DNA from: Candidatus Schekmanbacteria bacterium
Lineage (GTDB): Bacteria; CSSED10-310; JACPHN01
Reading direction: 5' to 3'
Length of the DNA: 40,481 nucleotides
Assembly: GCA_016188575.1 (NCBI GenBank)
Contig: JACPHN010000056.1
Span: forward strand, 1 to 40,481
Numbering within the stretch: position 1 is the first letter of the stretch; the number at the start of each line of letters is the position of its first letter. The notes below the pieces were generated by a model that saw only the letters and a program-made list of their open reading frames with translations, made no database searches and was not told where the DNA came from. Shown piece after piece: positions 15,743 to 37,646 of this stretch. The translations under genes were made by a program, and so were the position numbers.

Positions 15743-16828
15743 ATGGACGAAATCGAGCAGCTCCTGGCGAAAACGCTTGACCAGCAGCAGAGTGGAGCAC
15801 TTGGGGACATTCACCTCAAAGCCGGTGGTCCCATCTGGATCCGGCGCGACGGGGAGCTGGTGAGGTTGTCCGCCGAGATCGTACCGGGGGAAGCCGTCAG
15901 CGCCTTCGCGCGAAAAGTCCTTCGCGAGGATCAGTGGGAGCGGTTTGAGCGAGGGATGGCGGTGGACACATCCTATGGCCTCGGGGCGGTGGCGCGCTTT
16001 CGCGCTCATCTCTTTCACACCTATGGCGGGATGACGATTATTCTGCGCGCCATTCCGCTCGAGATCCCGAGTCTGGAGACGCTGAATTTGCCGCGCGAGC
16101 TCTTGAGCCTGGTCAAGCTCGACAGCGGTCTCGTGCTGATTGGCGGCGGGGCACGCGCGGGGAAGTCCACGACACTGGCGGCCATCGTCGAAGCCATCAA
16201 TGAAAGGTGTGCCCACCATATCGTGATCCTGGAGGATCCGATCGAGTTCCTGTACCGCGACCGCCGGGCGAGCATTTCCCAGGTGGAGGTCGGAACAGAT
16301 GTCGAGAGCTTGTCGGTGGGGTTGGATCGCGCAATACGAGAAGATGCCAATGTCGTGGTCGTCGGGGCAATCGGCCAGCCGAGGGGAATCGAACAGCTCG
16401 TGCCGCTGGCGGAGGGAGGGTGTCTGGTGTTGGCGACGGTGGAGGCAAACGACACTGCCGCTTTGCTCACGTCCTGTCTGGAAGCGGTGAGCGGCGAGCG
16501 GCGTGCGGCGCTGGCGGCAGCACTTGGAAGAAACCTGCAGTTGGTGATGTGCCAGAAAATGGTGGTGCGCGCTGGTGGCGGAGGCGTCGTTCCCATCACG
16601 GAAATGGCGTGGGGATGCCGGCCCTTGGCGGAGTGGTTGGAACTGGGCGGCAGCAGCTCTCGACTCCGCGAACTGCTCGAAAAGGGAACGGCGAGCTATG
16701 GAACGTACTCCTTCGATCAGAGCTTGATGAAACGCCTGCGGATGCGGGAGATCGACACGCAGGCGGCGATGGATGCGGCCACGGATACAGTCCCGTTCGA
16801 GCGGATGGTGGCAAGTGGACTCGACTGA
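15743..16828 (+). CDS. PilT-like type II/IV secretion ATPase with degenerate Walker B and His boxes
   Basis: Homologue of the pilus retraction ATPase PilT, 361 residues. The N-terminal PAS-like domain (about 1-105, GDIHLKAGGPIWIRRDGEL) and the RecA-like domain follow the family. Walker A is GGGARAGKS (134-142), with Lys141 kept. The Asp box VILEDPIEF (161-169) keeps its acidic residues. The Walker B region reads VVVVGAIGQ (204-212): the family GE is GA, so the catalytic glutamate is lost. The His box (family form ATLHTNS) reads ATVEAND, so the histidine is lost. It may bind ATP but hydrolyse poorly. It overlaps a second such gene by 14 bases. No pilin or PilB gene is in the window. Confidence 0.85.
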   Translation: MDEIEQLLAKTLDQQQSGALGDIHLKAGGPIWIRRDGELVRLSAEIVPGEAVSAFARKVLREDQWERFERGMAVDTSYGLGAVARFRAHLFHTYGGMTIILRAIPLEIPSLETLNLPRELLSLVKLDSGLVLIGGGARAGKSTTLAAIVEAINERCAHHIVILEDPIEFLYRDRRASISQVEVGTDVESLSVGLDRAIREDANVVVVGAIGQPRGIEQLVPLAEGGCLVLATVEANDTAALLTSCLEAVSGERRAALAAALGRNLQLVMCQKMVVRAGGGGVVPITEMAWGCRPLAEWLELGGSSSRLRELLEKGTASYGTYSFDQSLMKRLRMREIDTQAAMDAATDTVPFERMVASGLD

Positions 16829-17897
16829 GGCATCGCGGGTGGAGCTCGCCGGGCTGTTGGGCAAGGTGTGCGGGCCGGGGGTCTCGGACATTCACTTCAA
16901 GGCAGGACGACCGCCTGTGGTCAGACGGAATGGCCAGCTCGTCAACGCAGACTATCCAAGGCTGACGCCGAGTCACACGGGGCGGATCGCCAAGATGGTG
17001 CTGCCAAAGCCTCTCCAGGCGGCGCTGGTGCGGCAGTCGTCCGTATGTACGTCGTACTGGGTGCCGCAGCTCGGCCGATTTCGCGTCTCCTTTTTTCGGC
17101 AGCGGGGGAGCATTGAAGCGGTGTTTCGCTTCATCCCGGTCCGGCTGCCTGTGCGTGGGGAGCTTGGGCTGACCGGAGCAGTAGCCGGGCTGGTGCAGGA
17201 GACATCGGGGCTCATCCTGGTGACGGGACCGGCGTCATCAGGAAGGTCCACGACGGGAGCATGGCTTGTAGCGGAAGTTGCGCAGCGGCGCAGGGCGCAC
17301 ATTCTGACGATCGAGGATCCGATCGAGCACGTGATCGCAGATGCGCTGTCGTCGGTGGACCAAGTTGAGCTCGGGATGAACGGATCGGGTCTTGGATCGG
17401 CGCTGCGTCTGGCGGGACGTCAAGACGTCAACGTGCTCATGGTAGGGCCGCCGGTTACGGACGAGGCGCTCGAAGCGATGCTGGCGCTTGGGAGAGCGGG
17501 AATGCTGGTGATCGGCTACCTGACGGCAGCCAGCGTGCGCTCGGCGGTCGACTGGATTCTGGAGAGTTGCTCCGGTCGGGCGAGCGAGGCGCGGCTGGAG
17601 CTGGCGCTGACAACGATCCGAGCCGTCGTGGGGCAACGGCTCGTGATGGCTCGTGATGGGTCGCGCAGGATTGCGGCGCAAGAAGTCCTGCGAATGGAAT
17701 CGGGAGTGGCCAATGCGCTGGCTTCCGGGGCGAGCTGGGATGCCGTGCGCGCGCTCCAGCATGCCGCCGATCCGGAGGAAATGCACACCCTTGAGTGGCA
17801 CCTCATCGCCATGGCCAAGCGCGAAGAGATAACGGTCGATCAGGCCTTGGCGGCGGCGCAAGTCGCGAGCGAGGTTGAGCGTGAGCTATTGCTCTAG
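16815..17897 (+). CDS. Second PilT-like ATPase paralogue, degenerate Walker A and B
   Basis: A 360-residue PilT homologue beginning at GTG 16815 inside the end of the preceding gene; GTG 16839 is an alternative, and the longer frame from 16773 is unlikely. The N-terminal domain contains VSDIHFKAGRPPVVRRNGQL (23-42). Walker A is GPASSGRST (138-146), with Arg144 replacing the essential Lys. The Asp box is LTIEDPIEH (164-172). Walker B reads VLMVGPPVT, with Pro at the usual catalytic Glu, and the His box reads GYLTAAS with no His. This looks like a pseudo-ATPase, perhaps forming mixed rings with the upstream paralogue. The open frame and intact length argue for a retained protein rather than decay. 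Confidence 0.82.
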   Translation: MDSTEASRVELAGLLGKVCGPGVSDIHFKAGRPPVVRRNGQLVNADYPRLTPSHTGRIAKMVLPKPLQAALVRQSSVCTSYWVPQLGRFRVSFFRQRGSIEAVFRFIPVRLPVRGELGLTGAVAGLVQETSGLILVTGPASSGRSTTGAWLVAEVAQRRRAHILTIEDPIEHVIADALSSVDQVELGMNGSGLGSALRLAGRQDVNVLMVGPPVTDEALEAMLALGRAGMLVIGYLTAASVRSAVDWILESCSGRASEARLELALTTIRAVVGQRLVMARDGSRRIAAQEVLRMESGVANALASGASWDAVRALQHAADPEEMHTLEWHLIAMAKREEITVDQALAAAQVASEVERELLL

Positions 17898-24313: not shown

Positions 24314-25432
24314 ATGGGCGATCGCACTGGACAGCTCTTCGTATGCGGCTTTGACGGCACGCGCCTTCCCGCCGGACTGGAGCAGGCGCTGGCGGCCGGC
24401 GACTGCGGTGGGGTCATCTTGTTTTCGCGAAACATCGAAAGCCCCGCCCAGCTTGCAGCGCTGACGCAGCGGGTTTTCGAAGTCGGCACGCCGCACCGCC
24501 CGTGGATTTGTGTGGACCAGGAGGGTGGACGCGTGGCGCGCTTGCGCGCGCCTTTTACGGTGCTACCGCCAGCGGCGGTACTGGGCGCCCTTGACGACGT
24601 GGACGAGAGCAGGCGATATGCGCGGATTCTCGGCGACGAAGCCGCGGCGGCGGGCTTCAACATAATTTTCGCACCGGTTTTGGACGTCCACTCGAACGCG
24701 GCAAACCCGGTGATCGGAGACCGGGCGCTGTCAGGCGATCCCGCCGCTGTGGGCAGGCTCGGAATCGCTCTGGCCGCGGGGCTTCGCGAGGCCAGCGTAA
24801 TGCCTTGCGGCAAGCACTTTCCCGGCCACGGCGACACCTCTCAGGATTCACACGAAACGCTGCCGGTGGTCGCGCACGACCGCTACAGGCTCGAAGCTGT
24901 GGAGCTGAGGCCGTTTCGGCAGGCGTTGGCCGCGGGCCTGCCGGCGCTGATGACGGCGCACGTGTTGTATCCTGCGCTCGATGCCGACGTACCGGCCACA
25001 CTGTCGCCGCGCATCATCGGGGATTTGTTGCGCGGGGAGTGGGGCTTCGACGGCCTCGTCTTCTCGGACGACGTGGAGATGAAGGCCGTATCGGCGCGTT
25101 ACGCGGCGTGCGAAATCGTCATCGAGGGATTGGGGGCAGGGGTCGATCAGTTCCTTGTCTGCCGTCAATGGGAGCTGCTTCCGGGTCTGATTCGCAGTGT
25201 CGACGCCGCCGTGGAGGTGGGAAGGCTCCAGCCGGAAGTGATTGCCAAGGCGCTTTCCCGCATCGGCCGGGCCAAGGCGCAGTACGCTGCAGGCTATCGC
25301 GGCGTCGGCGCGGCGCAGATCGAGGCCTATCTGGCGGCGGTTGCGGAGCATCACGGGGCGATGGCGACCCGTTTCGCCGCGGCATGGCTAGCGGCGCGGG
25401 CGAGCCATGCGGATGGTGGCGGCGCGGGATGA
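24314..25432 (+). CDS. nagZ: Beta-N-acetylhexosaminidase, GH3 (NagZ)
   Basis: Cytosolic glycosidase that removes GlcNAc from GlcNAc-anhydroMurNAc muropeptides in peptidoglycan recycling. The 372-residue protein has the GH3 TIM-barrel motifs GGVILFSRN (32-40), VDQEGGRVARL (68-78), KHFPGHGDT (167-175), the catalytic-loop His in DSHETLP (H180), and the nucleophile Asp in FSDDVEMKA (250-258). No signal peptide. No good ribosome binding site is visible before ATG 24314. Its stop overlaps the proposed selD start as ATGA. Confidence 0.93.
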   Translation: MGDRTGQLFVCGFDGTRLPAGLEQALAAGDCGGVILFSRNIESPAQLAALTQRVFEVGTPHRPWICVDQEGGRVARLRAPFTVLPPAAVLGALDDVDESRRYARILGDEAAAAGFNIIFAPVLDVHSNAANPVIGDRALSGDPAAVGRLGIALAAGLREASVMPCGKHFPGHGDTSQDSHETLPVVAHDRYRLEAVELRPFRQALAAGLPALMTAHVLYPALDADVPATLSPRIIGDLLRGEWGFDGLVFSDDVEMKAVSARYAACEIVIEGLGAGVDQFLVCRQWELLPGLIRSVDAAVEVGRLQPEVIAKALSRIGRAKAQYAAGYRGVGAAQIEAYLAAVAEHHGAMATRFAAAWLAARASHADGGGAG

Positions 25433-26502
25433 GCCAAAAGAGGAAGCAATGGGAGCTGACGCGGCGCATCGACTGCGCGGGCTGAGCGTCCAAGATGAGC
25501 CCCAAGGTCTTGGGGCCTGCTCTGGCCGTGTTGACCTATCCAGGACACCCGCGCCTGCTCGTCGATGTCTCCACGTCAGATGACGCCGGTGTTTTTCAGC
25601 TCACCGACGAGCTGGCGTTGGTCCAGACGGTGGATTTTCTGACGCCGATCGTCAACGATCCCCGGATGTTTGGGCGCATCGCCGCGGCGAACGCGCTGAG
25701 CGACGTGTATGCCATGGGCGGGCGACCGCTGACGGCATTGTGCGTGGCTTGTTACCCGCGCGATCTGGAAGCGGAGGGGCTGGCGCTGATCACCGCGGGC
25801 GCCCGCGAGGCGGCGGATGAAGCCGATACCGTCATCGTGGGCGGTCATACGGTCATGGACCCGGAGCTCAAGTTTGGCCTTGCCGTGACTGGAATCGTGC
25901 ACCCGCGGCACATCGTGACAAACTCGGGGGCGCGGGAGAGCGACCTCCTCTTGTTGACCAAAGAGCTCGGGACGGGCATCGTGTCGACAGCGCTCAAGCG
26001 CCGAAGGGCCACGCCGGCGGCGGAGCAGCGCATCGTCGAATCCATGTGCCGGCTCAACCGCTACGCCTGCGAAGCGATGGAGCCGTTCGCAATCGCCGGC
26101 GCGACCGACGTTACCGGGTTTGGTTTGCTTGGGCATGGGCTCGAGCTCGCCCGGGCCTCGAGCGTTTCACTCGAGCTTTGGGCTTCCGCGATTCCAGTTT
26201 TCGCGGACGCCGTGGTATTGGCGCGCGACCGTGCCAATCTGACGCGAGGCGACGTCACGAATCGCGCCTACGCCGAGGGCCATGTCGCAGTGGATGCGGC
26301 CATTCCAGAGGAGCTCATCAGGGTTTTTTATGACCCGCAGACCTCCGGCGGGCTCTTGATTGCGGTGCCGCGCGAGCGCGCCACGGAGCTTCTGGAGCGT
26401 ATTCACGCAGGCGGTGACGCGGCGGCGCGCATCATTGGCAGGGTGGGGCGCGGACCGGTGCGCATCGTAGTCGCACCGGACGCGTCGCACGAGCCATCGT
26501 GA
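25429..26502 (+). CDS. selD: Selenide, water dikinase (selenophosphate synthase), selenocysteine-containing
   Basis: Makes selenophosphate from selenide and ATP, the selenium donor for selenocysteine and selenouridine. The usual reading would start at ATG 25495 and give 335 residues without the catalytic N-terminus. In the same frame an ATG at 25429, overlapping the nagZ stop as ATGA, leads through QWELTRRIDCAG, then TGA (25483-25485), then ASKMSPKVL. Family SelD proteins have (C/U)xxK at this place; U19 and K22 keep the spacing of C17 and K20 in E. coli SelD. Later motifs fit: TVDFLTPIVNDP, AANALSDVYAMGG, GGHTVMDPE, GATDVTGFGLLGH, DPQTSGGLL. A SECIS-like hairpin follows the TGA. Expected protein 357 residues with Sec19. 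Decoding needs selA, selB and selC elsewhere in the genome. Confidence 0.92.
25499..25516 (+). promoter_or_regulatory. Bacterial SECIS-like hairpin in selD
   Basis: GCCCCAA (25499-25505), loop GGTC (25506-25509) and TTGGGGC (25510-25516) form a perfect 7-bp stem. The loop lies 20 bases past the TGA, within the usual bacterial range, and the AGGUCU at the apex is shared with the E. coli fdhF SECIS. It would recruit SelB to insert selenocysteine. Confidence 0.75.
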
Positions 26503-26534: not shown

Positions 26535-27821
26535 TCAGAAGACGGTTGCAGCGGCGGCGATCATGGCGCGGAGCGTTGCCTCGACGTCCAAAGCGGAGTG
26601 GGCGGTCGAAAGGAACATCGCCTCGAACTGGGAAGGCGCCAAGAAAACGCCACGGTTGAGCAGCTCGCGGTGAAAGCGGGAGAAACGCCCGGTATCGGCA
26701 CGGCGCGCGTCATCCCACGACGCGACGCCGCCTGCAACGAAGAATGGCGTCGCTATGGACCCGAGCTGATTGACGGTCAGCGGCCAGGAGTGGCGTGTCG
26801 CGGCCTCGCGTAGCCCGGAAGCGAGTATCTCGCCAAAGGTAGCGAGTCTCTCGTACGTTTCCGGTAGCTTCAAGTGGGCGATTGTTTCCAGACCGGCGCG
26901 CATGGCCAATGGGTTTCCGGATAGCGTTCCGGCCTGGTAGACGGGCCCGCAGGGAGCGACCATTTGCATGATGTCCTTCCGCCCACCGTAGGCGCCGACG
27001 GGGAGCCCACCGCCGATGATTTTGCCGAGGCAGGTCAGGTCGGGCATGACGCCGAAGTGCGCCTGGGCACCACCGAGACCAAGGCGAAAACCGCTGATGA
27101 CCTCATCGAAGATGAGCAGGACACCGCGCGAGGCAGTAAGCTCGCGGATCTCCTCGAGGTATCCGGAGCGGGGCAACACGACGCCCATGTTCGCCGGCAC
27201 AGGTTCGACGATGAAGGCGGCGACGTCATCGCCATGAGCATCGAGGGCGGCGCGCAGTGCCGCCGCATCGTTGAAGGGGATGGTCACGGTAAGCGCGGCG
27301 AAGGCCTCGGGCACACCGGGACTCGACGAGAGCCCGAGGGTGGCCAGGCCGGAGCCTGCGCGCGACAAGAAAGCGTCGCCGTGGCCGTGATAGCAGCCTT
27401 CGCACTTCACGATCACGCGCCGTTTGGTAAAGGCCCGGGCGAGCCGAATGGCGCTCATCGTCGCCTCCGTGCCGCTGCTGACGAAACGAACCATCGCCAC
27501 AGAGGGGACACACGCCGTCACGACGCGGGCCATATCTACCTCGAGCGCGGTGGGGGCTCCGAAGCTTGTGCCTTTCTCTGCCTGGCGGGCGATTGCGGCC
27601 ACGACGGGCGCGGCGGCATGACCCAGAATCATGGGACCGTAGGAGCCGACATAGTCGATGTAGCTTTTCCCCTCGACGTCCCAAATCGTGGCGCCGGAGG
27701 CGCGCTCGACGAAAAACGGGGAACCCCCAACTGAAGCGAAGGAGCGCACCGGGCTATTGACGCCGCCGGGAAGCAGCTCCTGGGCCTCGGAAAACAGTGC
27801 GGTCGAAGTAGCAGCAGTCAT
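26535..27821 (-). CDS. hemL: Glutamate-1-semialdehyde 2,1-aminomutase
   Basis: PLP enzyme that converts glutamate-1-semialdehyde, the HemA product, to 5-aminolevulinate. The 428 residues match the family. Motifs: LLPGGVNSPVR near 16-26, SSGTEATMSAIRLAR near 115-129, IFDEVISGFR near 237-246, and the PLP lysine K267 in CLGKIIGGGLPVG. ATG 27821 is supported by GGAGGT; the frame to 27881 is not needed. Last gene of the minus-strand heme operon, 47 bases after hemB, and convergent with selD. Confidence 0.97.
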   Translation of the reverse strand: MTAATSTALFSEAQELLPGGVNSPVRSFASVGGSPFFVERASGATIWDVEGKSYIDYVGSYGPMILGHAAAPVVAAIARQAEKGTSFGAPTALEVDMARVVTACVPSVAMVRFVSSGTEATMSAIRLARAFTKRRVIVKCEGCYHGHGDAFLSRAGSGLATLGLSSSPGVPEAFAALTVTIPFNDAAALRAALDAHGDDVAAFIVEPVPANMGVVLPRSGYLEEIRELTASRGVLLIFDEVISGFRLGLGGAQAHFGVMPDLTCLGKIIGGGLPVGAYGGRKDIMQMVAPCGPVYQAGTLSGNPLAMRAGLETIAHLKLPETYERLATFGEILASGLREAATRHSWPLTVNQLGSIATPFFVAGGVASWDDARRADTGRFSRFHRELLNRGVFLAPSQFEAMFLSTAHSALDVEATLRAMIAAAATVF

Positions 27822-27868
27822 GATGTCACCTCCGAAGAGCCGCGGAAAGCGATGCAGCGTGGCCGCGC

Positions 27869-28840
27869 TTACGCCAGCCAACGCGCGACGTCCTTGGCGT
27901 GGTAGGTCAGGATGAGGTCGGCGCCGGCACGGCGCATGGCGGTGAGGGTTTCGAGCACGACACGGCGTTCGTCGATCCAGCCGCGCGCGGCCGCGGCCTT
28001 GACCATGCTGTATTCGCCGCTGACGTTGTAGGCGGCGACGGGGACGTCGAACGCGTCGCGCACCTCCCGGACGATGTCGAGGTAGGCGAGCGCCGGCTTG
28101 ACCATGACGATGTCCGCTCCCTCCGCAATGTCGAGCTCAACCTCGCGGAGGGCCTCACGGCGATTGGCGGGATCCATCTGGTAGGAGCGGCGGTCCCCGA
28201 ACTGGGGAGCGGACTCCGCGGCCTCCCGAAACGGACCGTAGAAGCCGGAGCAGTATTTTGCGGCATAGGACAGGATGGGGACGCTGGCATAGCCGATTTC
28301 GTCGAGATGATCGCGGATCGCACCGATGCGGCCATCCATCATGTCGCTGGGCGCAATCATGTCGGCTCCAGCGGCGGCGTGGGCCGCCGCTTCGCGCGCC
28401 AGCAGCTCCAGCGTAGCATCGTTGACGACCTCACCGTTCTCGACGACGCCGCAATGACCATGGCTCGTGTACTCGCACAGGCACACGTCGGTGATGACGG
28501 TGAGGTCGAGCGCGGCGCTCTTGATGGCGCGAATCGCCAGCGGCACGATCCCATCCGGAGCGTAGGCACCCGATCCCGCCTCGTCCTTGCGCTCGGGAAT
28601 GCCAAAGAGAATCACCGCGGGAATCCCAAGCCCGGCGACGTCCCGACAATCCTCGACGAGCCGGTCAACGGACTGCTGGTAGCAGCCGGGCATCGACGAA
28701 ACTTCGCGCCGCGTGCCTGAGCCCGGGCAAACGAAGAGCGGGTAGATGAGATTGTCCACCGCAAGTCGAGTCTCGCGGACCATGCGGCGGAATCGTTCGG
28801 TCTGGCGCAATCGTCTGGGGCGGTCAATCGGAAAGGCCAT
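27869..28840 (-). CDS. hemB: Porphobilinogen synthase (ALA dehydratase), zinc-type
   Basis: Condenses two 5-aminolevulinate molecules to porphobilinogen. Of 323 residues, C120, C122 and C130 in [13 protein letters not shown] form the catalytic zinc site, so this is a zinc-dependent enzyme. K195 in [12 protein letters not shown] and K248 in VMVKPA are the Schiff-base lysines. ATG 28840 follows AGGA and overlaps the hemD end by 17 bases; the longer frame to 28924 runs into hemD and is unlikely. Confidence 0.97.
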
Positions 28841-29642
28841 GGTGTCCTGCCTTCGCTGGAGAAAGGAGCGCGTCGAGAGCATCAATGAGCTGAGGGATTC
28901 CGGGTTGGCGCGGCTCGACATCAACCTTCAACCCGAGCTCGGTCAAGGCGGCGGTGGTCGTCGGGCCAATGGAAGCGATGACACCGCGAGCGCGCACTGA
29001 CGCAAGCAGTGTTGGACCGACGAGGCGGGCGAAGCCCTCGGCAGCAGAGGGGCTGGTGAAGGTGTATGCGGCGATTTCACCGGCGAGCATGGCGTCGCGC
29101 AGCGTGGGATCGAGGTCGCCCTCGCCGACGGCGGTGCGGTAGACGACGACGACATCTACGGCGGCGCCCTGGCGAGCGAGACCGTCTGCAACCGTGTCAC
29201 GGGCCAGATCGCCGGCCGGAAAGAGGATACGGCCGGAGTGCGGGACCGCGGAAAAGGCGCGGACCACGCCATCGGCGTTGTGCAGATCGGGGATGAGGCA
29301 GGGCCGGCGACCGATGGCGGCAAGCGCCGCCGCCGTGGCGTCGCCCACGGCGCAGAGCGGCGGCCACTCGCTTTCGGGGCGGCGCAGGCGGCAGCGCTCG
29401 GCAAAGGAGTGCACCGCGTTGCGGCTCGTAAAGACGATCCACGCATAGCATTCCAGGCGGTCGATAGCCGCGTCGGCCGGAGCCCAATCCAGGGGTGGGC
29501 GAATCGCGATCGTCGGGAGCAGGACAGGAATCGCACCGCGGGCGGCAACCAGGTTCGCCATGCCGCCGGCGTCGCCGCGGGCGCGGGTGATGAGCACCTT
29601 GGGCGGCGCCGCAGGTGGTGAACCGGGAGCGCGCTCAGACAT
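28824..29642 (-). CDS. hemD: Uroporphyrinogen-III synthase
   Basis: Cyclises hydroxymethylbilane to uroporphyrinogen III with inversion of ring D. The 272-residue protein shows the loosely conserved family pattern: [12 protein letters not shown] near 15-26, [14 protein letters not shown] in the first domain, and [18 protein letters not shown] plus [18 protein letters not shown] in the second. ATG 29642 overlaps hemC by 8 bases. Identification rests on these motifs and on position between hemC and hemB. Confidence 0.92.
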
Positions 29643-30576
29643 CGCCGGACGCAGTCGAGCGGAGCTCGGCGAGAATCGCATCGCCTCCTGCCGCACGCAG
29701 TCGGTGGGCGAGCCGTACTCCGAGGGATTCCGGGTCGCGGCTGACCCCGGACAGGTGCTCGCGCACATAGCGCCCGCCGTCGAGGGAAACCATGCAGGCG
29801 TCCATCAGTAGCTCGCCGGCGCTGGCTGGATCCGGCCGGCACCAGGCTCCCAGGGGGACTTGACAGCCGCCTTCGATTTCCCGCAGCAACGCGCGCTCGG
29901 CACGCACGGCGATCGCGGTCGGCGCGTGGTCAATACGCGCCAGCAGGCCCAGCGCTGCGGCATCATCCTCGCGCGCCTCGATCCCGACGGCTCCCTGCCC
30001 GACCGCGGGCAAGAGCACGTCAGTGTCGAGAATCTCGGCGATTTCCGCCGCGAGTCCGAGGCGTTCGAGCCCGGCGCGCGCCAGCACAATCGCATCATAC
30101 TGACCTTCGCGCAGCTTGCGGAGGCGGGTGTCGACGTTACCGCGAATGTCCTCGCAGATGAGCTCGGGGCGGTGATGGCGCAGTTGCGCCTGGCGGCGCA
30201 GGCTGCTGGTGCCGACGCGGCCGCCCGCCGGGAGGTCGCGCAGCCGCGCGCCGGTACGCGACACCAGGCAGTCTTGCACATCGTGGCGGGCACAATACGC
30301 GGCGATGGTCAGGCCGGCCGGGATGGATGTGGGCAGGTCCTTCATGCTGTGCACGGCGAGGTCAACCTCGGAGCGCAGTAAGGCATGCTCGATCTCGCGC
30401 ACGAACACGCCACGATCGAGCTGGGCCAGCGAGGCGTCGAGGCGGTCGTCTCCGGTCGTGCGGATGACGACGATCGCCGCGGCAATGTCGAGGCCGCCAA
30501 GAAGCGACCGCACGTGCTCCGCCTGCCAGAGCGCGAGCTTGCTGCCGCGCGTGCCGATTTTCAGTGGTCTCGTCAT
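29635..30576 (-). CDS. hemC: Hydroxymethylbilane synthase (porphobilinogen deaminase)
   Basis: Links four porphobilinogen units to hydroxymethylbilane. In 313 residues: KIGTRGSKLALWQ at 6-18, catalytic D80 in HSMKDLPT, the Arg-rich GTSSLRRQAQL, and C238 in EIEGGCQVPLG, which carries the dipyrromethane cofactor. Its ATG overlaps the hemA stop (ATGA). Confidence 0.97.
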   Translation of the reverse strand: MTRPLKIGTRGSKLALWQAEHVRSLLGGLDIAAAIVVIRTTGDDRLDASLAQLDRGVFVREIEHALLRSEVDLAVHSMKDLPTSIPAGLTIAAYCARHDVQDCLVSRTGARLRDLPAGGRVGTSSLRRQAQLRHHRPELICEDIRGNVDTRLRKLREGQYDAIVLARAGLERLGLAAEIAEILDTDVLLPAVGQGAVGIEAREDDAAALGLLARIDHAPTAIAVRAERALLREIEGGCQVPLGAWCRPDPASAGELLMDACMVSLDGGRYVREHLSGVSRDPESLGVRLAHRLRAAGGDAILAELRSTASGDV

Positions 30577-31832
30577 TCGCCGGACTCCAAGTCAAAGAGG
30601 TAGCGGACGCTCGCGAGGTGACCGGGATCGGCGGACTCTCGCAGTCGCACGGTGGGTTCATGAAGGAGCTTGTTGGTGATCGCGTGCGCCAGCGAGCGCA
30701 CGATTTCGCGATCGCGCTCGGTCAGGTCGCCGAGTCGCCGCAAGTGCTCTTGAAGCTCATCCTCGCTGATGCGCGCGGCGCGCCTGCGCAGCTCCTTGAT
30801 GGTGGGCACCACCGCGAGGCCTTCGTACCACTGCATGAATGCCGTCACGTGCTCGTCCACAATCGCCTGGACGCGAGGCAAGTCGCGCTCGCGTTCTTTG
30901 CGATTTTCGGCTGCGATTCCCTGCAAGTCGTCGAGGTTGTAGAGAAAGACATTGTAGAGCGTCGAGACCTCGTGGTCTACGTTGCGCGGCAGCGCCAGAT
31001 CAATGAAAAAGAGAGGGCGGTCTTCTCGTGCCGCCATGACGTCGGCGATCCGCGCATGGTCGAGCAGTGGGCGATCGGCGGCGGCGGACGTGATGACGAT
31101 GTCCTGAAACCGCAGGTCGGCAAATCCGGCCTCGAGGTCCAGGGCACGCCCGCCGAGCTCTCGGGCGAGCTCTCGGGCGCGTTCGATCGAGCGGTTTGCG
31201 ACGGTAATGCGGCCCGCGCCTCGCTGCGTCAAACTGCGCACGGTCGCCTGGCCGATTTCGCCGGCACCGATGACGATCACGGAGCAGTCGCGGAGATCGC
31301 CGAAAATCGACTGCGCGAGATCGACACCAACCGAGCTCACGGAGACGGGCCGGAGGCCGATCTCGGTTTCAGTGCGCACGCGCTTGCCGGCGTGAACCGC
31401 GAGGTGAAAGAGCCGGTTCAGCACGGTTCCGGTGTACTGTTGCGCCAGAGCAAGCTGAAAAGCGTCGCGAATTTGTCCCAGGATGTGCGGTTCGCCGACG
31501 ACCAGGGAATCGAGGCTCGAGGCGACGCGCAGCAGGTGGCGGGCGACGGCGGCGTGTTGGTGAACGTAGAAGCAAGATGACGTGGCCTCGTGGTCGACGC
31601 CGTGGTAGCGGCACACGGCGGTGCGGATGCGAGGGGCGAGCTCGGTGCCCCGCGGCCCCACCGAATAGACCTCGCTGCGATTGCAAGTCGAGAGGATGGC
31701 GATTTCGCGAACACCGAGCTCGGCGCGCATCGAGGACATGGCCTCCAGGGCCTGCTCCGGGGAGAAGGCGAAGCGCTCGCGGACCTCGATCGGCGAGGTT
31801 TCGTGGTTGAGCCCGACGGCGATAAGCTCCAT
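30573..31832 (-). CDS. hemA: Glutamyl-tRNA reductase
   Basis: First committed step of the C5 pathway: NADPH reduction of glutamyl-tRNA(Glu) to glutamate-1-semialdehyde. The 419-residue protein begins IAVGLNHETSPIEVRE, has the catalytic Cys50 in ILSTCNRSE, the domain-2 motif EPHILGQIRDAF, and NADPH-binding VIGAGEIGQATV. ATG 31832 gives the family N-terminus; upstream 20 codons of open frame are not needed. It follows the CcsA/HemX-like gene by 19 bases, a common pairing. Confidence 0.97.
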   Translation of the reverse strand: MELIAVGLNHETSPIEVRERFAFSPEQALEAMSSMRAELGVREIAILSTCNRSEVYSVGPRGTELAPRIRTAVCRYHGVDHEATSSCFYVHQHAAVARHLLRVASSLDSLVVGEPHILGQIRDAFQLALAQQYTGTVLNRLFHLAVHAGKRVRTETEIGLRPVSVSSVGVDLAQSIFGDLRDCSVIVIGAGEIGQATVRSLTQRGAGRITVANRSIERARELARELGGRALDLEAGFADLRFQDIVITSAAADRPLLDHARIADVMAAREDRPLFFIDLALPRNVDHEVSTLYNVFLYNLDDLQGIAAENRKERERDLPRVQAIVDEHVTAFMQWYEGLAVVPTIKELRRRAARISEDELQEHLRRLGDLTERDREIVRSLAHAITNKLLHEPTVRLRESADPGHLASVRYLFDLESGE

Positions 31833-31851
31833 GGCGGTCACGTGGCAGCGA

Positions 31852-32673
31852 TCAGAAAAAAGAGTGCAACCGGGAGAGCAGAAGGTTGCCAAGGGTGTAA
31901 CTGAAGAGCACCGCCGAAAAGCCGGCGATCGAGACCCACGCGGAGCGTTCGCCGCGCCAACCGCGACGGCCTTCGAGCAGCAGGTAGGTCACGTAGATGA
32001 CCAGGCAGGCGAGCGAGATCGGGACCTTGGCGTCGATTTCCTGCGCCTCTTCGGTCCACACCTGGGCAGCGCGGACAATTCCAGTAGCGACGCCCACCGC
32101 GAGGGCAACGACGCCGACGCGGATGCTCGTTCGTGAAGTCTCCTCGAGCACGCGGAGCGGGGGGAGAAGCGGCGCCCAGCGCCCCGGCCGGTGCTTGCGG
32201 AGGCGGCGGTAGAGTACGAGGTAGGTCACGCTGGAAATGAAGGCGAGAGTAAACGCCGCGTACGCGAACATGCTCACGTTGACGTGAAAGGCGAAAAGTG
32301 CTCCCTTCGCCCACGATTTTTGCTCCACGGCGGGGGCGGGCACAATGGCGAAGAGGAGATGAAAGGCAATAATGATGGGCAGCACGAAGATGCTCATGGC
32401 CTTGTTCTTGCGCCGCAACTCGAGCAGCAGGTAGGCGAGGCCGAGCATCCAGCCGAACAGCGACAGCGATCCGTAGAAATCGAGGTAGGGCACGGCATCC
32501 ATGAGCAACCCGCGCTGGAGCAGCGCAAGAAAGTGCACAGGTAACGCGAGCGCGAACAGCGCGGTACCCCAGCTCCCGAGGCGCGGTTTGCGCCGTTGCA
32601 GGTGTCGGAAATAACATCCCGTACTCGCAGCGTAGAGCAGGACGGAGAGCCACTTGCTGAGCAGGAGAATCAT
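31852..32673 (-). CDS. CcsA/HemX-like membrane protein
   Basis: A 273-residue integral membrane protein with about eight hydrophobic helices, of the cytochrome c assembly (CcsA/ResC/HemX) group. Histidines in helices (LPVHFLALL, FAFHVNVSM) could bind heme. I do not see the tryptophan-rich WWD loop of true heme-handling CcsA; the corresponding region reads AQVWTEEAQEIDAKV. Together with its place directly before hemA this suggests the HemX branch, linked to control of glutamyl-tRNA reductase level, rather than cytochrome c synthesis. ATG 32673 (peptide MILLLSKW) was chosen; open frame to 33099 lies antisense to hemE. Probable first gene of the minus-strand heme operon. Confidence 0.8.
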   Translation of the reverse strand: MILLLSKWLSVLLYAASTGCYFRHLQRRKPRLGSWGTALFALALPVHFLALLQRGLLMDAVPYLDFYGSLSLFGWMLGLAYLLLELRRKNKAMSIFVLPIIIAFHLLFAIVPAPAVEQKSWAKGALFAFHVNVSMFAYAAFTLAFISSVTYLVLYRRLRKHRPGRWAPLLPPLRVLEETSRTSIRVGVVALAVGVATGIVRAAQVWTEEAQEIDAKVPISLACLVIYVTYLLLEGRRGWRGERSAWVSIAGFSAVLFSYTLGNLLLSRLHSFF

Positions 32674-32737
32674 GGTTCGGTCTCGTTCGCCGGAGCGCGG
32701 CGCAGAAATCCACTTGTCGGAGGAGAGAGTATAACAG

Positions 32738-33784
32738 ATGACCAGCTCAATTTCTAAGACCGAACGCTTCCTGCGCGCCTGCCGGAGGCAACCCGTCGAC
32801 CGTGCGCCCGTCTGGATGATGCGCCAGGCGGGGCGATATCTGGCGGAGTACCAGGCGATTCGCTCGCGCGTTTCGTTCATCGAGCTGTGCAAGAGCCCGG
32901 ACCTCGCCGTGGAGGTGTCGCTGCAGCCCCTCCAGCTTGTGGGAGTCGAAGCCGTCATCATGTTTTCTGATATCTTGATTCCGCTGGAGGCCATGGGCGC
33001 GCCGATCGCCTTCGATGACGGTGGCCCGCGGATCACCGAGCCGCTGTGCTCGCGTGGGCAAGTCGAAGCGTTGGTCGTGCCGGATCCCGAAGAGCGCATG
33101 CCATTCTGCTTCGAGACGATCCGCAGGTTGCGCGCGGAGCTCGGGGGCGAGGTGCCGCTGATCGGCTTCGCGGGCGCTCCGTATACGCTCGCGTCCTATC
33201 TGGTCGAAGGCGGCAGCTCCAAGAGCTATGCAACCATCAAGGCCATGTTGTTTTCGGCACCCGAGCTCGCGCACGCGCTGCTCGCCAAGCTGGCGGATAC
33301 GATCGCGGCATACTTGCAGGCGGCGGTTGCAGCGGGGGCGCAAGTCGTGCAGTTGTTCGATACGTGGGCGGGCGAGCTCGCGCCCGAGGATTACCGGGAG
33401 TTCGCATTCCCATATCAGCAGCGCGTCTTTGCGCAGCTCGATCAGGCGCGGGCTCCGGCGGTGCTGTATGTGAACGGCAGTTGCGGCATCCTGGAAATGA
33501 TGGCGGAAACCGGCGCGAGTGTGCTCAGCATCGACTGGCGGACCGATCTGGCGGAAGCCCGCCGACGCGTCGGCCAGCGCGTCGCGCTGCAGGGAAACGT
33601 CGATCCCGCGGTGCTTCTCGGCACTCCGGAGAAGATCCGAGCAGTGACCGATGAAACGCTGCGGAAGGGCGGAAGTAGCGGCCATATTCTCAATCTCGGC
33701 CATGGAATCCTGCCGTCGACGCCGCTCGCAAACGCTCGCCTGTTCTGTGCCGCACCCACTATTTTTTCGGAAGCCCAGCCATGA
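32738..33784 (+). CDS. hemE: Uroporphyrinogen decarboxylase
   Basis: Removes four carboxyl groups from uroporphyrinogen III to give coproporphyrinogen III. In 348 residues: PVWMMRQAGRYLAEY near 24-38 with the substrate-binding Arg, the Asp in IMFSDILIPLEAMG, GFAGAPYTLASYLVEG, and LNLGHGILPSTP near the end. GGAGGAGAG precedes the ATG. It diverges from the CcsA/HemX-like gene across only 64 bases, so the two heme operons probably share a control region. It overlaps hemN as ATGA. Confidence 0.97.
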   Translation: MTSSISKTERFLRACRRQPVDRAPVWMMRQAGRYLAEYQAIRSRVSFIELCKSPDLAVEVSLQPLQLVGVEAVIMFSDILIPLEAMGAPIAFDDGGPRITEPLCSRGQVEALVVPDPEERMPFCFETIRRLRAELGGEVPLIGFAGAPYTLASYLVEGGSSKSYATIKAMLFSAPELAHALLAKLADTIAAYLQAAVAAGAQVVQLFDTWAGELAPEDYREFAFPYQQRVFAQLDQARAPAVLYVNGSCGILEMMAETGASVLSIDWRTDLAEARRRVGQRVALQGNVDPAVLLGTPEKIRAVTDETLRKGGSSGHILNLGHGILPSTPLANARLFCAAPTIFSEAQP

Positions 33785-35208
33785 GAGATCAGGAGATCCT
33801 GGATATCGAGCTCGACGGTGAACGCCACGAAATCACGGTCGAGCTTCTGAACAAGTACAACGTGCCCGGCCCGCGCTACACCAGTTACCCGACCGCGCCC
33901 GAGTGGTCAGATGACTATCGATGCGCCGACCACGTGGCGGACCTTGCCGCGGCCAACGCCAGGGAGACCGGCGAGGCGGAGCGGCCAGTATCGCTGTACT
34001 TTCACATTCCGTTCTGTGAACGTCTATGCCTCTATTGCGGCTGCAACGTTGTCATCAACAAGAACAAGGAAGTAGCTCCGCCCTACATCGAGCGCCTTAC
34101 GCGAGAAACAAGAATGGTCGCGTCTCAGGTATCGCGGAACAGGCCGGTCGTTCAGCTCCACTGGGGAGGTGGCACGCCGACCTACCTGAGCCCTGCCCAG
34201 ATCGAGGAGGTATTCGGCGCCATTTCGGAGCAGTTCACGATCGCGGCGGACGCTGAGGTCGGTGTCGAGATCGATCCGCGGGTGACGACACCGGAGCACG
34301 TCCGCGCGCTCAGAAAAGTCGGATTTAACCGCGTCAGCATGGGAGTGCAGGATTTCGATCCCACCGTGCAGCAGACCGTGCGCCGGATACAGCCCTTCGA
34401 GGCGACGCGCGACCTCGTGGCGCTGTGCCGGGAGTCGGGCTTTCAGAGCGTCAACGTCGACCTTATCTATGGCTTGCCGTACCAGACGGCCGGCAGCTTT
34501 GCGGACACGATCGCCAAGGTCGAAGCCATCGCTCCGGATCGCATCGCCATGTACAGCTACGCGCACGTGCCGTGGCTCAAGAAACAGCAGAAGAGCTTTG
34601 CGGCACATCTGCCGCAAGGCATGGACAAGTTCCGGATTTTCCGCGCGGGAGTGACGGGGTTCTCGAAGGCGGGCTACGTGTACATCGGCATGGACCATTT
34701 CGCCAAACCGAGCGATGAGCTCGCCGTGGCGCTGCGAGCGCGGACGCTGCATCGCAACTTCCAGGGGTATTCAACGCGGGCGCACGCCGACTTGCTGGGA
34801 ATGGGGGTCAGCGCGATCAGCGGGCTGCGGCGCTCGTATGCGCAAAACTACCGCGACCTGGCCGCCTATTACGCGGCGGTGGACCGCGACGATCTTCCGG
34901 TGATGCGCGGTTTCGCGCTCGACGAGGACGACATCCTGCGCCGCGAGGTCATCACCCGAATTCTGTGCCACCGCCTGATTTCCAAGGGCGAGATCGGCCG
35001 CGCGTTCGGGATCGACTTCGATTCGCATTTTGCCGGCGAGCTGCGCCGAGTCGAGGATCTGGTTGCCGATGGGTTGGTGACGCTCGACGGTGACGTGATG
35101 CGCGCGACACCGGTCGGCTGCATCTTTCTGCGCAACATTGCCATGGTGTTCGACCGCTACTTGCAAAAGCAGCGCATCGAGAGCCCGGTCTTCTCGCGCA
35201 CCTTGTAG
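33781..35208 (+). CDS. hemN: Oxygen-independent coproporphyrinogen III oxidase (radical SAM)
   Basis: Radical-SAM enzyme that decarboxylates coproporphyrinogen III to protoporphyrinogen IX without oxygen. In 475 residues the cluster motif is C79, C83 and C86 in FCERLCLYCGC, with the extra Cys88 typical of true HemN. Other matches: PRYTSYPTAPEW at 31-42, LHWGGGTPTYLSP, DLIYGLPYQT, and a HemN C-terminal domain with AFGIDFDSHF. Length and these features separate it from HemW. Confidence 0.96.
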   Translation: MRDQEILDIELDGERHEITVELLNKYNVPGPRYTSYPTAPEWSDDYRCADHVADLAAANARETGEAERPVSLYFHIPFCERLCLYCGCNVVINKNKEVAPPYIERLTRETRMVASQVSRNRPVVQLHWGGGTPTYLSPAQIEEVFGAISEQFTIAADAEVGVEIDPRVTTPEHVRALRKVGFNRVSMGVQDFDPTVQQTVRRIQPFEATRDLVALCRESGFQSVNVDLIYGLPYQTAGSFADTIAKVEAIAPDRIAMYSYAHVPWLKKQQKSFAAHLPQGMDKFRIFRAGVTGFSKAGYVYIGMDHFAKPSDELAVALRARTLHRNFQGYSTRAHADLLGMGVSAISGLRRSYAQNYRDLAAYYAAVDRDDLPVMRGFALDEDDILRREVITRILCHRLISKGEIGRAFGIDFDSHFAGELRRVEDLVADGLVTLDGDVMRATPVGCIFLRNIAMVFDRYLQKQRIESPVFSRTL

Positions 35209-35222
35209 ACGGCAAGCAAGCG

Positions 35223-36227
35223 ATGACGAGCGCGCGCTCAGACGCAGACACCACCGTGTTGCTGCTCAACTTCGGAGGGCCCGACACGGGCGAGGACGTG
35301 GGGCCGTTCCTCTATCGGCTCTTCGCCTGCCCGGAGGTCATCCCGCTGCCGGCCCCGCTGCGGGTGCCGCTTGCCTGGGCACTCGCCAGGGCACGGCGGC
35401 GTGAATCGCGCGAGATGTATGAGAAGATCGGCGGCGGCTCGCCGCTGCGCAAGCATACCGAGCAACAGGCGCGGGCGATCGCGGCAGAGCTGCGGCGGCG
35501 CGGGCGCGGCGACGTCGCGGTGCGCATCGGCATGCAATGTTCCGAGCCCTCGATCGCAGTCGCGGTAGGAGAGGTCGTCAGGGAATCGCCGCGCGTGGTT
35601 GTCGTGCTGCCGCTCTTCCCACAGTATTCGGTGACGACGACGGGGGCATGCTATCGCCTCTTCGAAAAGGCATGGCGCCAGCAGCGGCGCGGTGCGCGTC
35701 CGGCGCTGCGCCGCATTCGCGAGTGGCCGACGGCGCCCGGTTACGTCGCGACGCTGGTCGAGCTGATCCGCTCGACCTTGGCGCAGGTTCCCGCGCCGCG
35801 GCGGGACGCGGCCCACGTGCTGTTTAGTGCGCACAGCGTGCCGAAGCGGATAATCGACGCCGGCGACCCCTATCTCGGTCAGATCAAGCAAACGGTGGCC
35901 GCGGTCTACAGCGCGCTCGGCATTCCGAACCGGCACAGTCTGAGCTTTCAGAGCAAGGTGGGCCCGGTCGAATGGCTGGCGCCATCGACGGATGTGGCGA
36001 TCGCGGACCTCGGCCGGGCGGGGTGTCGCGATCTGGTCGTCGTACCGATCAGCTTCGTATCCGAGCATCTCGAGACGCTGTACGAGATCGACATGCTGTA
36101 CCGCGGCCAGGCGGTCGCGGCCGGCATCGACGGCTTCTACCGTGCGCCGGCCCCGAATGCTCATCCCGTCTTCATTTCGGGGATTTCGGATCTCATCGTC
36201 GCCGAGCTCGATGCCGGGTTGGATTGA
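35223..36227 (+). CDS. hemH: Ferrochelatase
   Basis: Inserts Fe2+ into protoporphyrin IX. In 334 residues: TVLLLNFGGPDT at 11-22, GGSPL at 71-75, the catalytic His204 in LFSAHSVPKRI, and the metal-side Glu region ISFVSEHLETLYEID. Protoporphyrin use rather than coproporphyrin is inferred from the accompanying hemN and absence of hemQ. It starts 14 bases after hemN with only a weak ribosome binding site, so translation is probably linked. Confidence 0.96.
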   Translation: MTSARSDADTTVLLLNFGGPDTGEDVGPFLYRLFACPEVIPLPAPLRVPLAWALARARRRESREMYEKIGGGSPLRKHTEQQARAIAAELRRRGRGDVAVRIGMQCSEPSIAVAVGEVVRESPRVVVVLPLFPQYSVTTTGACYRLFEKAWRQQRRGARPALRRIREWPTAPGYVATLVELIRSTLAQVPAPRRDAAHVLFSAHSVPKRIIDAGDPYLGQIKQTVAAVYSALGIPNRHSLSFQSKVGPVEWLAPSTDVAIADLGRAGCRDLVVVPISFVSEHLETLYEIDMLYRGQAVAAGIDGFYRAPAPNAHPVFISGISDLIVAELDAGLD

Positions 36228-36269
36228 TGTTAGAAACCGCGCCTAGCAGCGGCCGGAGGTAGTGCAAGC

Positions 36270-37646
36270 ATGCGGAAAATGGTAGTCATCATCGGCGGTG
36301 GGATAGCCGGGCTCACGGTGGCGTATGACCTGCTGCGCAGGAAGCTCGACGTGCTGCTTCTGGAAACCGAAGAGCGCGTCGGCGGGGTGATGGGAAGTGA
36401 CCGGCAGGAGGGCTTCCTGGTCGAGCGCGGGCCGAACAGCTTCCTGAGCGCCCCGGAAATCGACGGGCTGATCGGCGAGCTCGGATTGGATGAGGAACGG
36501 GTCACGGCGCCGGCGACGGCGCCGCGGTACGTGTACCGCGGCAAGCAGATGCTGGCGGTCCCGATGAGCCCGCCGGCGCTCGTCAAGACCTCCCTGCTGA
36601 GCCGCCGGGCAAAAGCTCGCTTGTTCCTCGAACCGTTCATTGCGCCGAACCGCGACGATGATGAATCGGTGGCGAGCTTCTTCACGCGGAGACTGGGCAT
36701 CGAGATCGCGGAGCGCCTGGTCGATCCGTTCGTCTCCGGGGTCTATGCCGGCGATGCGGCGCGGCTGAGCGTGCGCAGCTCTTTTCCGGCGGTGGCCGCG
36801 CTGGAGCGCGACCATGGATCGCTCTTCATGGGGGCGATGCGGAGCCGCAAGAAAACCTCGGCGCCGCGCACCAAGCGCACTCTGACCTCGTTTCGCCGGG
36901 GTTTGGGGACGTTGCCCGCGGCGCTGCAGGAGCGCCTGGGCGACCGCATCCGCTGCGGCGTCACCGCCGCGATCGCGCCCCGTGCTCCAGGTGAGGGCGG
37001 AGATGCGTTCACGGTAACGGTTCGCCATGCGAACTGCGAGGGCAGCACCGCGACCCTGGATGCCCGGGCTGTCGTTATCGCGGCCCCGGCGCTCGCTACG
37101 GCGGGGCTCGTCGCGCCATTTTCGGGCGCGGCCGCGGACCAGCTCCGCGGCGTCGACTATCCACCGCTCGTGTCGATGACGCTCGGCTTCGATGCCGGCG
37201 CGGTGCACGGCCCGCTGGATGGCTTCGGATTCCTCATTCCCCGCACGGAGAACATGGAGATACTTGGTTGCATCTGGAGCTCCAGCCTGTTCCCGGAGCG
37301 CGCTCCCGCCGGCAGTGTATGTCTGACCGCATTTATCGGCGGGGCGACAAACCGCGGCGTCGCGCGGCGCGAGCAAGCGGAGCTGCTGCAAGTCGTGATG
37401 CACGAGCTGCGTGCTGCAATGGGGATCGCGCAGCCGCCCACGCACGTGGCGATCCACAAGTATGAGCGCGCGATACCCCAGTACAACGTCGGCCACGAGC
37501 AACGGCTCGGGATCGTTCGGGAGTCGCTGGCGGCGTGGCCGGGGTTGTTTCTGGCGGGCAGCTACCTGGGAGGCGTGTCGGTGGCTGATCGCGTCAAGAC
37601 CGCGCGCGAAACGGCAGCGCGGGTAGCAGCATTCGTCGCGGCGTGA
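36270..37646 (+). CDS. hemY: Protoporphyrinogen oxidase, FAD-dependent HemY type
   Basis: Oxidises protoporphyrinogen IX to protoporphyrin IX using FAD. In 458 residues: dinucleotide-binding VVIIGGGIAGLTVAYDLL at 5-22, the second FAD contact ETEERVGGVMGS, ERGPNSFL, and the C-terminal FLAGSYLGGVSVADRVKTA that contacts FAD. GGAGGT precedes ATG 36270. Also named hemG in some annotations. Normally oxygen-dependent, which contrasts with the oxygen-independent HemN beside it. Last gene of the plus-strand heme operon. Confidence 0.95.
   Translation: MRKMVVIIGGGIAGLTVAYDLLRRKLDVLLLETEERVGGVMGSDRQEGFLVERGPNSFLSAPEIDGLIGELGLDEERVTAPATAPRYVYRGKQMLAVPMSPPALVKTSLLSRRAKARLFLEPFIAPNRDDDESVASFFTRRLGIEIAERLVDPFVSGVYAGDAARLSVRSSFPAVAALERDHGSLFMGAMRSRKKTSAPRTKRTLTSFRRGLGTLPAALQERLGDRIRCGVTAAIAPRAPGEGGDAFTVTVRHANCEGSTATLDARAVVIAAPALATAGLVAPFSGAAADQLRGVDYPPLVSMTLGFDAGAVHGPLDGFGFLIPRTENMEILGCIWSSSLFPERAPAGSVCLTAFIGGATNRGVARREQAELLQVVMHELRAAMGIAQPPTHVAIHKYERAIPQYNVGHEQRLGIVRESLAAWPGLFLAGSYLGGVSVADRVKTARETAARVAAFVAA

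Follow-up and report, generated by a model that had tools for sequence, protein, structure and literature searches.

The selD gene on the forward strand of the 40,481-nucleotide stretch of DNA analysed here (the window) occupies positions 25429–26502 and almost certainly encodes a selenophosphate synthetase that is predicted to contain selenocysteine (Sec). On the combined evidence of the reading frame, homologous genes, a downstream hairpin and the gene content of the source genome, we consider it very highly probable that the in-frame UGA at 25483–25485 is decoded as Sec, as residue 19 of a 357-residue protein, through the hairpin at 25499–25516. The presence of Sec in SelD is itself a well-known arrangement: the enzyme has long been described as a selenoprotein (PMC1794560, PMC4561486), the pattern dates from at least 2005–2006, and the present case adds one further, little-studied bacterium. 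Its value lies in the correction of a gene model from which the N-terminal loop, with its Sec and Lys residues, would otherwise be lost, and in the prediction of Sec decoding in a bacterium whose phylum is sparsely represented in the searched set.

Reading frame and catalytic codon of selD

From the ATG at 25429, the selD frame reads MSQKRKQWELTRRIDCAG, TGA (25483–25485), then ASKMSPKVLGPALAV, and this single TGA is the only interruption before the stop codon at 26500–26502. The start codon overlaps the stop codon (TGA, 25430–25432) of the preceding nagZ-like gene (24314–25432, forward strand; named from the motif KHFPGHGDT, read by eye) as ATGA, an overlap that suggests that selD is likely to be translationally coupled to nagZ; no promoter- or terminator-like sites were found around the pair. 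An ordinary open reading frame, by comparison, opens at the ATG at 25495, encodes 335 residues and begins past the catalytic loop. The preliminary description had proposed precisely this loss of the active-site loop, together with an extension of the frame through one TGA to 25429, and both can be read directly from the sequence.

Scoring against the SelD equivalog profile TIGR00476 favours the longer form: the extended protein reaches 346.7 bits (the cut-off being 125) and the short form 328.5 bits, such that readthrough adds 18 bits and brings the start of the match forward to profile position 2, as compared with 17 for the short form. In addition to exceeding the cut-off, the extended protein carries the Cys/Sec position of the N-terminal loop (the TGA, residue 19), which aligns with the catalytic Cys of Escherichia coli SelD, and Lys22 (AAG, 25492–25494). 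The peptide immediately after the TGA is ASKMSPKVL, and the earlier suggestion that CAG-U-ASKMSPKVL corresponds to the family loop, with the Lys three residues after Sec, is borne out by an alignment of 16 SelD proteins (with U written as C): the Gly preceding the catalytic residue, the Sec/Cys itself and the Lys at +3 are all invariant. Asp52, Asp69, Asn88, Asp92 and Asp227 are likewise invariant in this alignment and are retained in the window protein.

The TGA coincides with the one catalytic Cys/Sec column of the SelD family, a position that is not attributable to chance. We compared the corresponding codon in 109 other SelD genes, comprising 29 loci from relatives and 80 genes from named genomes, and found TGA in 85 of them and a Cys codon in the remainder. 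The relatives derive from a SelD search of 60 genomes, in which 49 gave matches at E ≤ 0.001, some of these being merely distant SelD relatives; 30 loci, the window's own among them, were taken for reading, and the other 29 have TGA (26) or Cys (3) at the catalytic column. At locus L045, the reported match begins a short way downstream of the TGA. The named genomes, which include Acidobacteria, Deltaproteobacteria, Firmicutes, Chloroflexi, Planctomycetota and others, contribute 59 TGA, 13 TGC and 8 TGT codons and no other, so that the in-frame UGA aligns with Sec or Cys (21 of the 80) throughout; these genes were chosen by likeness to the window protein, and their Sec share is accordingly no census. 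According to a published survey, 19% of prokaryotic SelD genes encode Sec, without exception at the catalytic position, and the others encode Cys (PMC4561486). The possibility raised at the outset, that the segment around the TGA might not be conserved in relatives, is thus answered by a conserved segment with TGA or Cys codons only.

These data also bear on whether the TGA might be a true stop codon that arose from a Cys codon through point mutation or sequencing error, in which case selD would be truncated or a pseudogene and would start at 25495. A one-base change does convert TGC or TGT to TGA, and an ATG is available 10 bases downstream; set against this, 85 of the 109 homologs, from many phyla, have TGA at this position, the rest of the frame is undamaged and conserved, and a hairpin is present. 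Moreover, initiation at 25495 would deprive the genome's only SelD of both its catalytic residue and Lys22, despite the presence of selA, selB and selC. We consider such a truncation very improbable.

The SECIS-like hairpin

Folding of the region downstream of the UGA reveals a SECIS-like hairpin, GCCCCAA-GGUC-UUGGGGC (25499–25516, forward strand; loop 25506–25509), with a stem of 7 bp, a 4-nt GGUC loop, a spacing of 20 nt from the UGA and an energy of −11.2 kcal/mol. The published bSECIS model calls for 4–16 bp, a loop of 3–9 nt with G within its first two positions, a spacing of 16–37 nt and an energy of −7.5 kcal/mol or lower (PMC13188914); the selD hairpin lies within all four of the published limits. 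Additionally, the fdhF element of E. coli has the same loop letters, the identity of the fdhF sequence having been confirmed. Taken by itself, the hairpin is weak evidence and only modestly special, because among 1000 synonymous recodings of the same peptide 5.9% gave an equally good hairpin and 33% reached −7.5 kcal/mol. The minimum free energy of the region is similarly modest relative to dinucleotide shuffles (z-score −1.9); an Rfam scan of the window gave no family above its gathering score, and a scan around the TGA gave just one chance match (E 0.1).

Across the 80 genes from named genomes, the evidence from hairpins is strong. A hairpin at or below −7.5 kcal/mol follows the TGA in 36 of 59 genes, as against 8.7 expected from synonymous recoding, whereas only 3 of the 21 Cys genes pass this threshold, as against 3.9 expected; such hairpins are thus significantly enriched among the TGA genes relative to the Cys genes (rank test, P = 4 × 10−7, an approximate value, the sequences being related).

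Selenocysteine machinery and other uses of selenium

The source genome (a draft of 9.2 Mb in 275 contigs, 94% complete with 3.7% contamination) contains selA (473.6 bits; cut-off 267.9), selB (366 bits, its C-terminal part included; cut-off 242) and selC, the tRNA-Sec gene (76.8 bits, over the cut-off), which has a TCA anticodon (UCA in the RNA); the runner-up to the latter is an ordinary tRNA-Ser. These genes lie on contigs other than that of selD, a point that, in a draft assembly with some contamination, weighs against the Sec reading, although GC content is similar, being 0.67 for the Sec loci and 0.65 for the window (range 0.63–0.67). The genome has this one SelD only. The preliminary description had taken the selD TGA to imply a working Sec system, a view that the lack of selB or selC would have undermined; the presence of all three genes supports it, and the SECIS-like hairpin and a second TGA-containing gene lend further support.

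That gene is SelW-like (G000:C239:18838–19053; L136:1501–1716), exceeds the cut-off for PF10262 and has an in-frame TGA within a CxxU motif (CAAU) in the peptide VVHIQLIFCAAUNYEPQ; it is likely to be the second selenoprotein gene of the source genome and its start codon is likely to be GTG. A hairpin with a GUU loop follows 22 nt after its TGA, the stem alone having an energy of −6.5 kcal/mol, short of −7.5. No TGA was found in the FdhA-like, AhpC/TSA, thioredoxin or CMD/AhpD matches of the source genome.

An alternative to Sec insertion is that the UGA of selD is read through as another residue by near-cognate decoding, giving a SelD without Sec. There is a precedent in that non-Sec readthrough has been proposed for the homologous UGA in SPS1-UGA of selenoprotein-less Hymenoptera (PMC4561486). 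Those insects lack selenoproteins, whereas the source genome has the Sec machinery, and the bacterial SelD genes that we examined show only Sec or Cys codons at this position; we regard this reading as more improbable still than a true stop.

We favour, instead, Sec insertion at the selD UGA. Translation would start at the ATG at 25429, and the hairpin at 25499–25516 would hold SelB-GTP-Sec-tRNASec at the UGA (25483–25485), so that Sec is inserted at position 19 in what is presumably the flexible N-terminal loop. In the SelD family, a mobile N-terminal loop handles selenide, and Sec19 would be expected to lie in such a loop together with Lys22. The enzyme would then make selenophosphate from selenide and ATP, and SelA would use this for the synthesis of Sec-tRNASec, thereby supplying SelD itself, the SelW-like protein and perhaps others.

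Searches of the source genome for Sec-FdhA, selU (ybbB; TIGR03167) and yqeB (TIGR03309) found none of these, which is why selenophosphate in this organism probably serves Sec only. Every Sec-decoding bacterium without FdhA was previously observed to have Sec-SelD (PMC1794560), a pattern that the source genome fits with respect to the handful of families covered here. More tentatively, and as a proposal that we consider rather unlikely in its entirety, Sec decoding in this lineage might be upheld mainly by SelD and the SelW-like protein, without Sec-FdhA, selenouridine or a selenium cofactor, with SelD using a Cys16–Sec19 (CxxU) redox pair.

In a survey of SelB in 17 other genomes, judged by score over the cut-off, the protein was present in 10 of the 11 genomes whose SelD gene contains TGA (G007, 69% complete, being the one exception) and in the Cys-SelD genome G001; none was found in G009, G011, G054 and G059, in which SelD is absent or represented by merely a distant relative. 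The last of the 17, G002, from the same phylum, has a SelB over the cut-off (273 bits), yet no true SelD was found in this draft genome (87% complete).

Comparison with known SelD proteins and the surrounding genes

The most similar arrangements that we describe are those of three SelD proteins from Acidobacteria/Bryobacterales (L060, L072 and L095), which are about 50% identical to the window protein (53% for L060) and resemble it in the AGUASK loop, the SPKVL segment and the catalytic residues. Their genes also have a SECIS-like hairpin with a GGU loop and a 20-nt spacing from the UGA, the pairing register of the stem being one base off that of the window. Unlike these three, the window protein has a Cys three residues before Sec: CAGU (25474–25485) constitutes a CxxU motif, formed by Cys16 and Sec19, and we would guess at a selenenylsulfide between the two. 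The motif is a minority variant, seen by eye in 12 of the 59 Sec-SelD genes of the named genomes; an ocean survey gave its frequency among single-domain Sec-SelD proteins as about 5.6% (PMC2398784).

Of the solved structures, the E. coli-type SelD (PDB code: 3u0o) aligns over residues 9–321 (E 2 × 10−55), the match starting from query residue 9, with AGCGCKISPKVL aligned to AG-U-ASKMSPKVL of the window protein; it has Cys where the latter has Sec, and its second loop Cys corresponds to Ser21. The SelD of PDB codes 2yye and 2zod (E 8 × 10−54) has a GCAAK loop, the solved chain having Cys at the Sec position.

Elsewhere in the window, positions 26535–37646 hold an apparent near-complete heme biosynthesis cluster, convergent with selD and arranged as two divergent arms: hemL, hemB, hemD, hemC and hemA leftward, and hemE, hemN-like, hemH and hemG-like rightward, the names being taken from the translations only. 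Two adjoining PilT-like ATPase-type genes, both apparently diverged as judged by eye, are located at 15743–17897.
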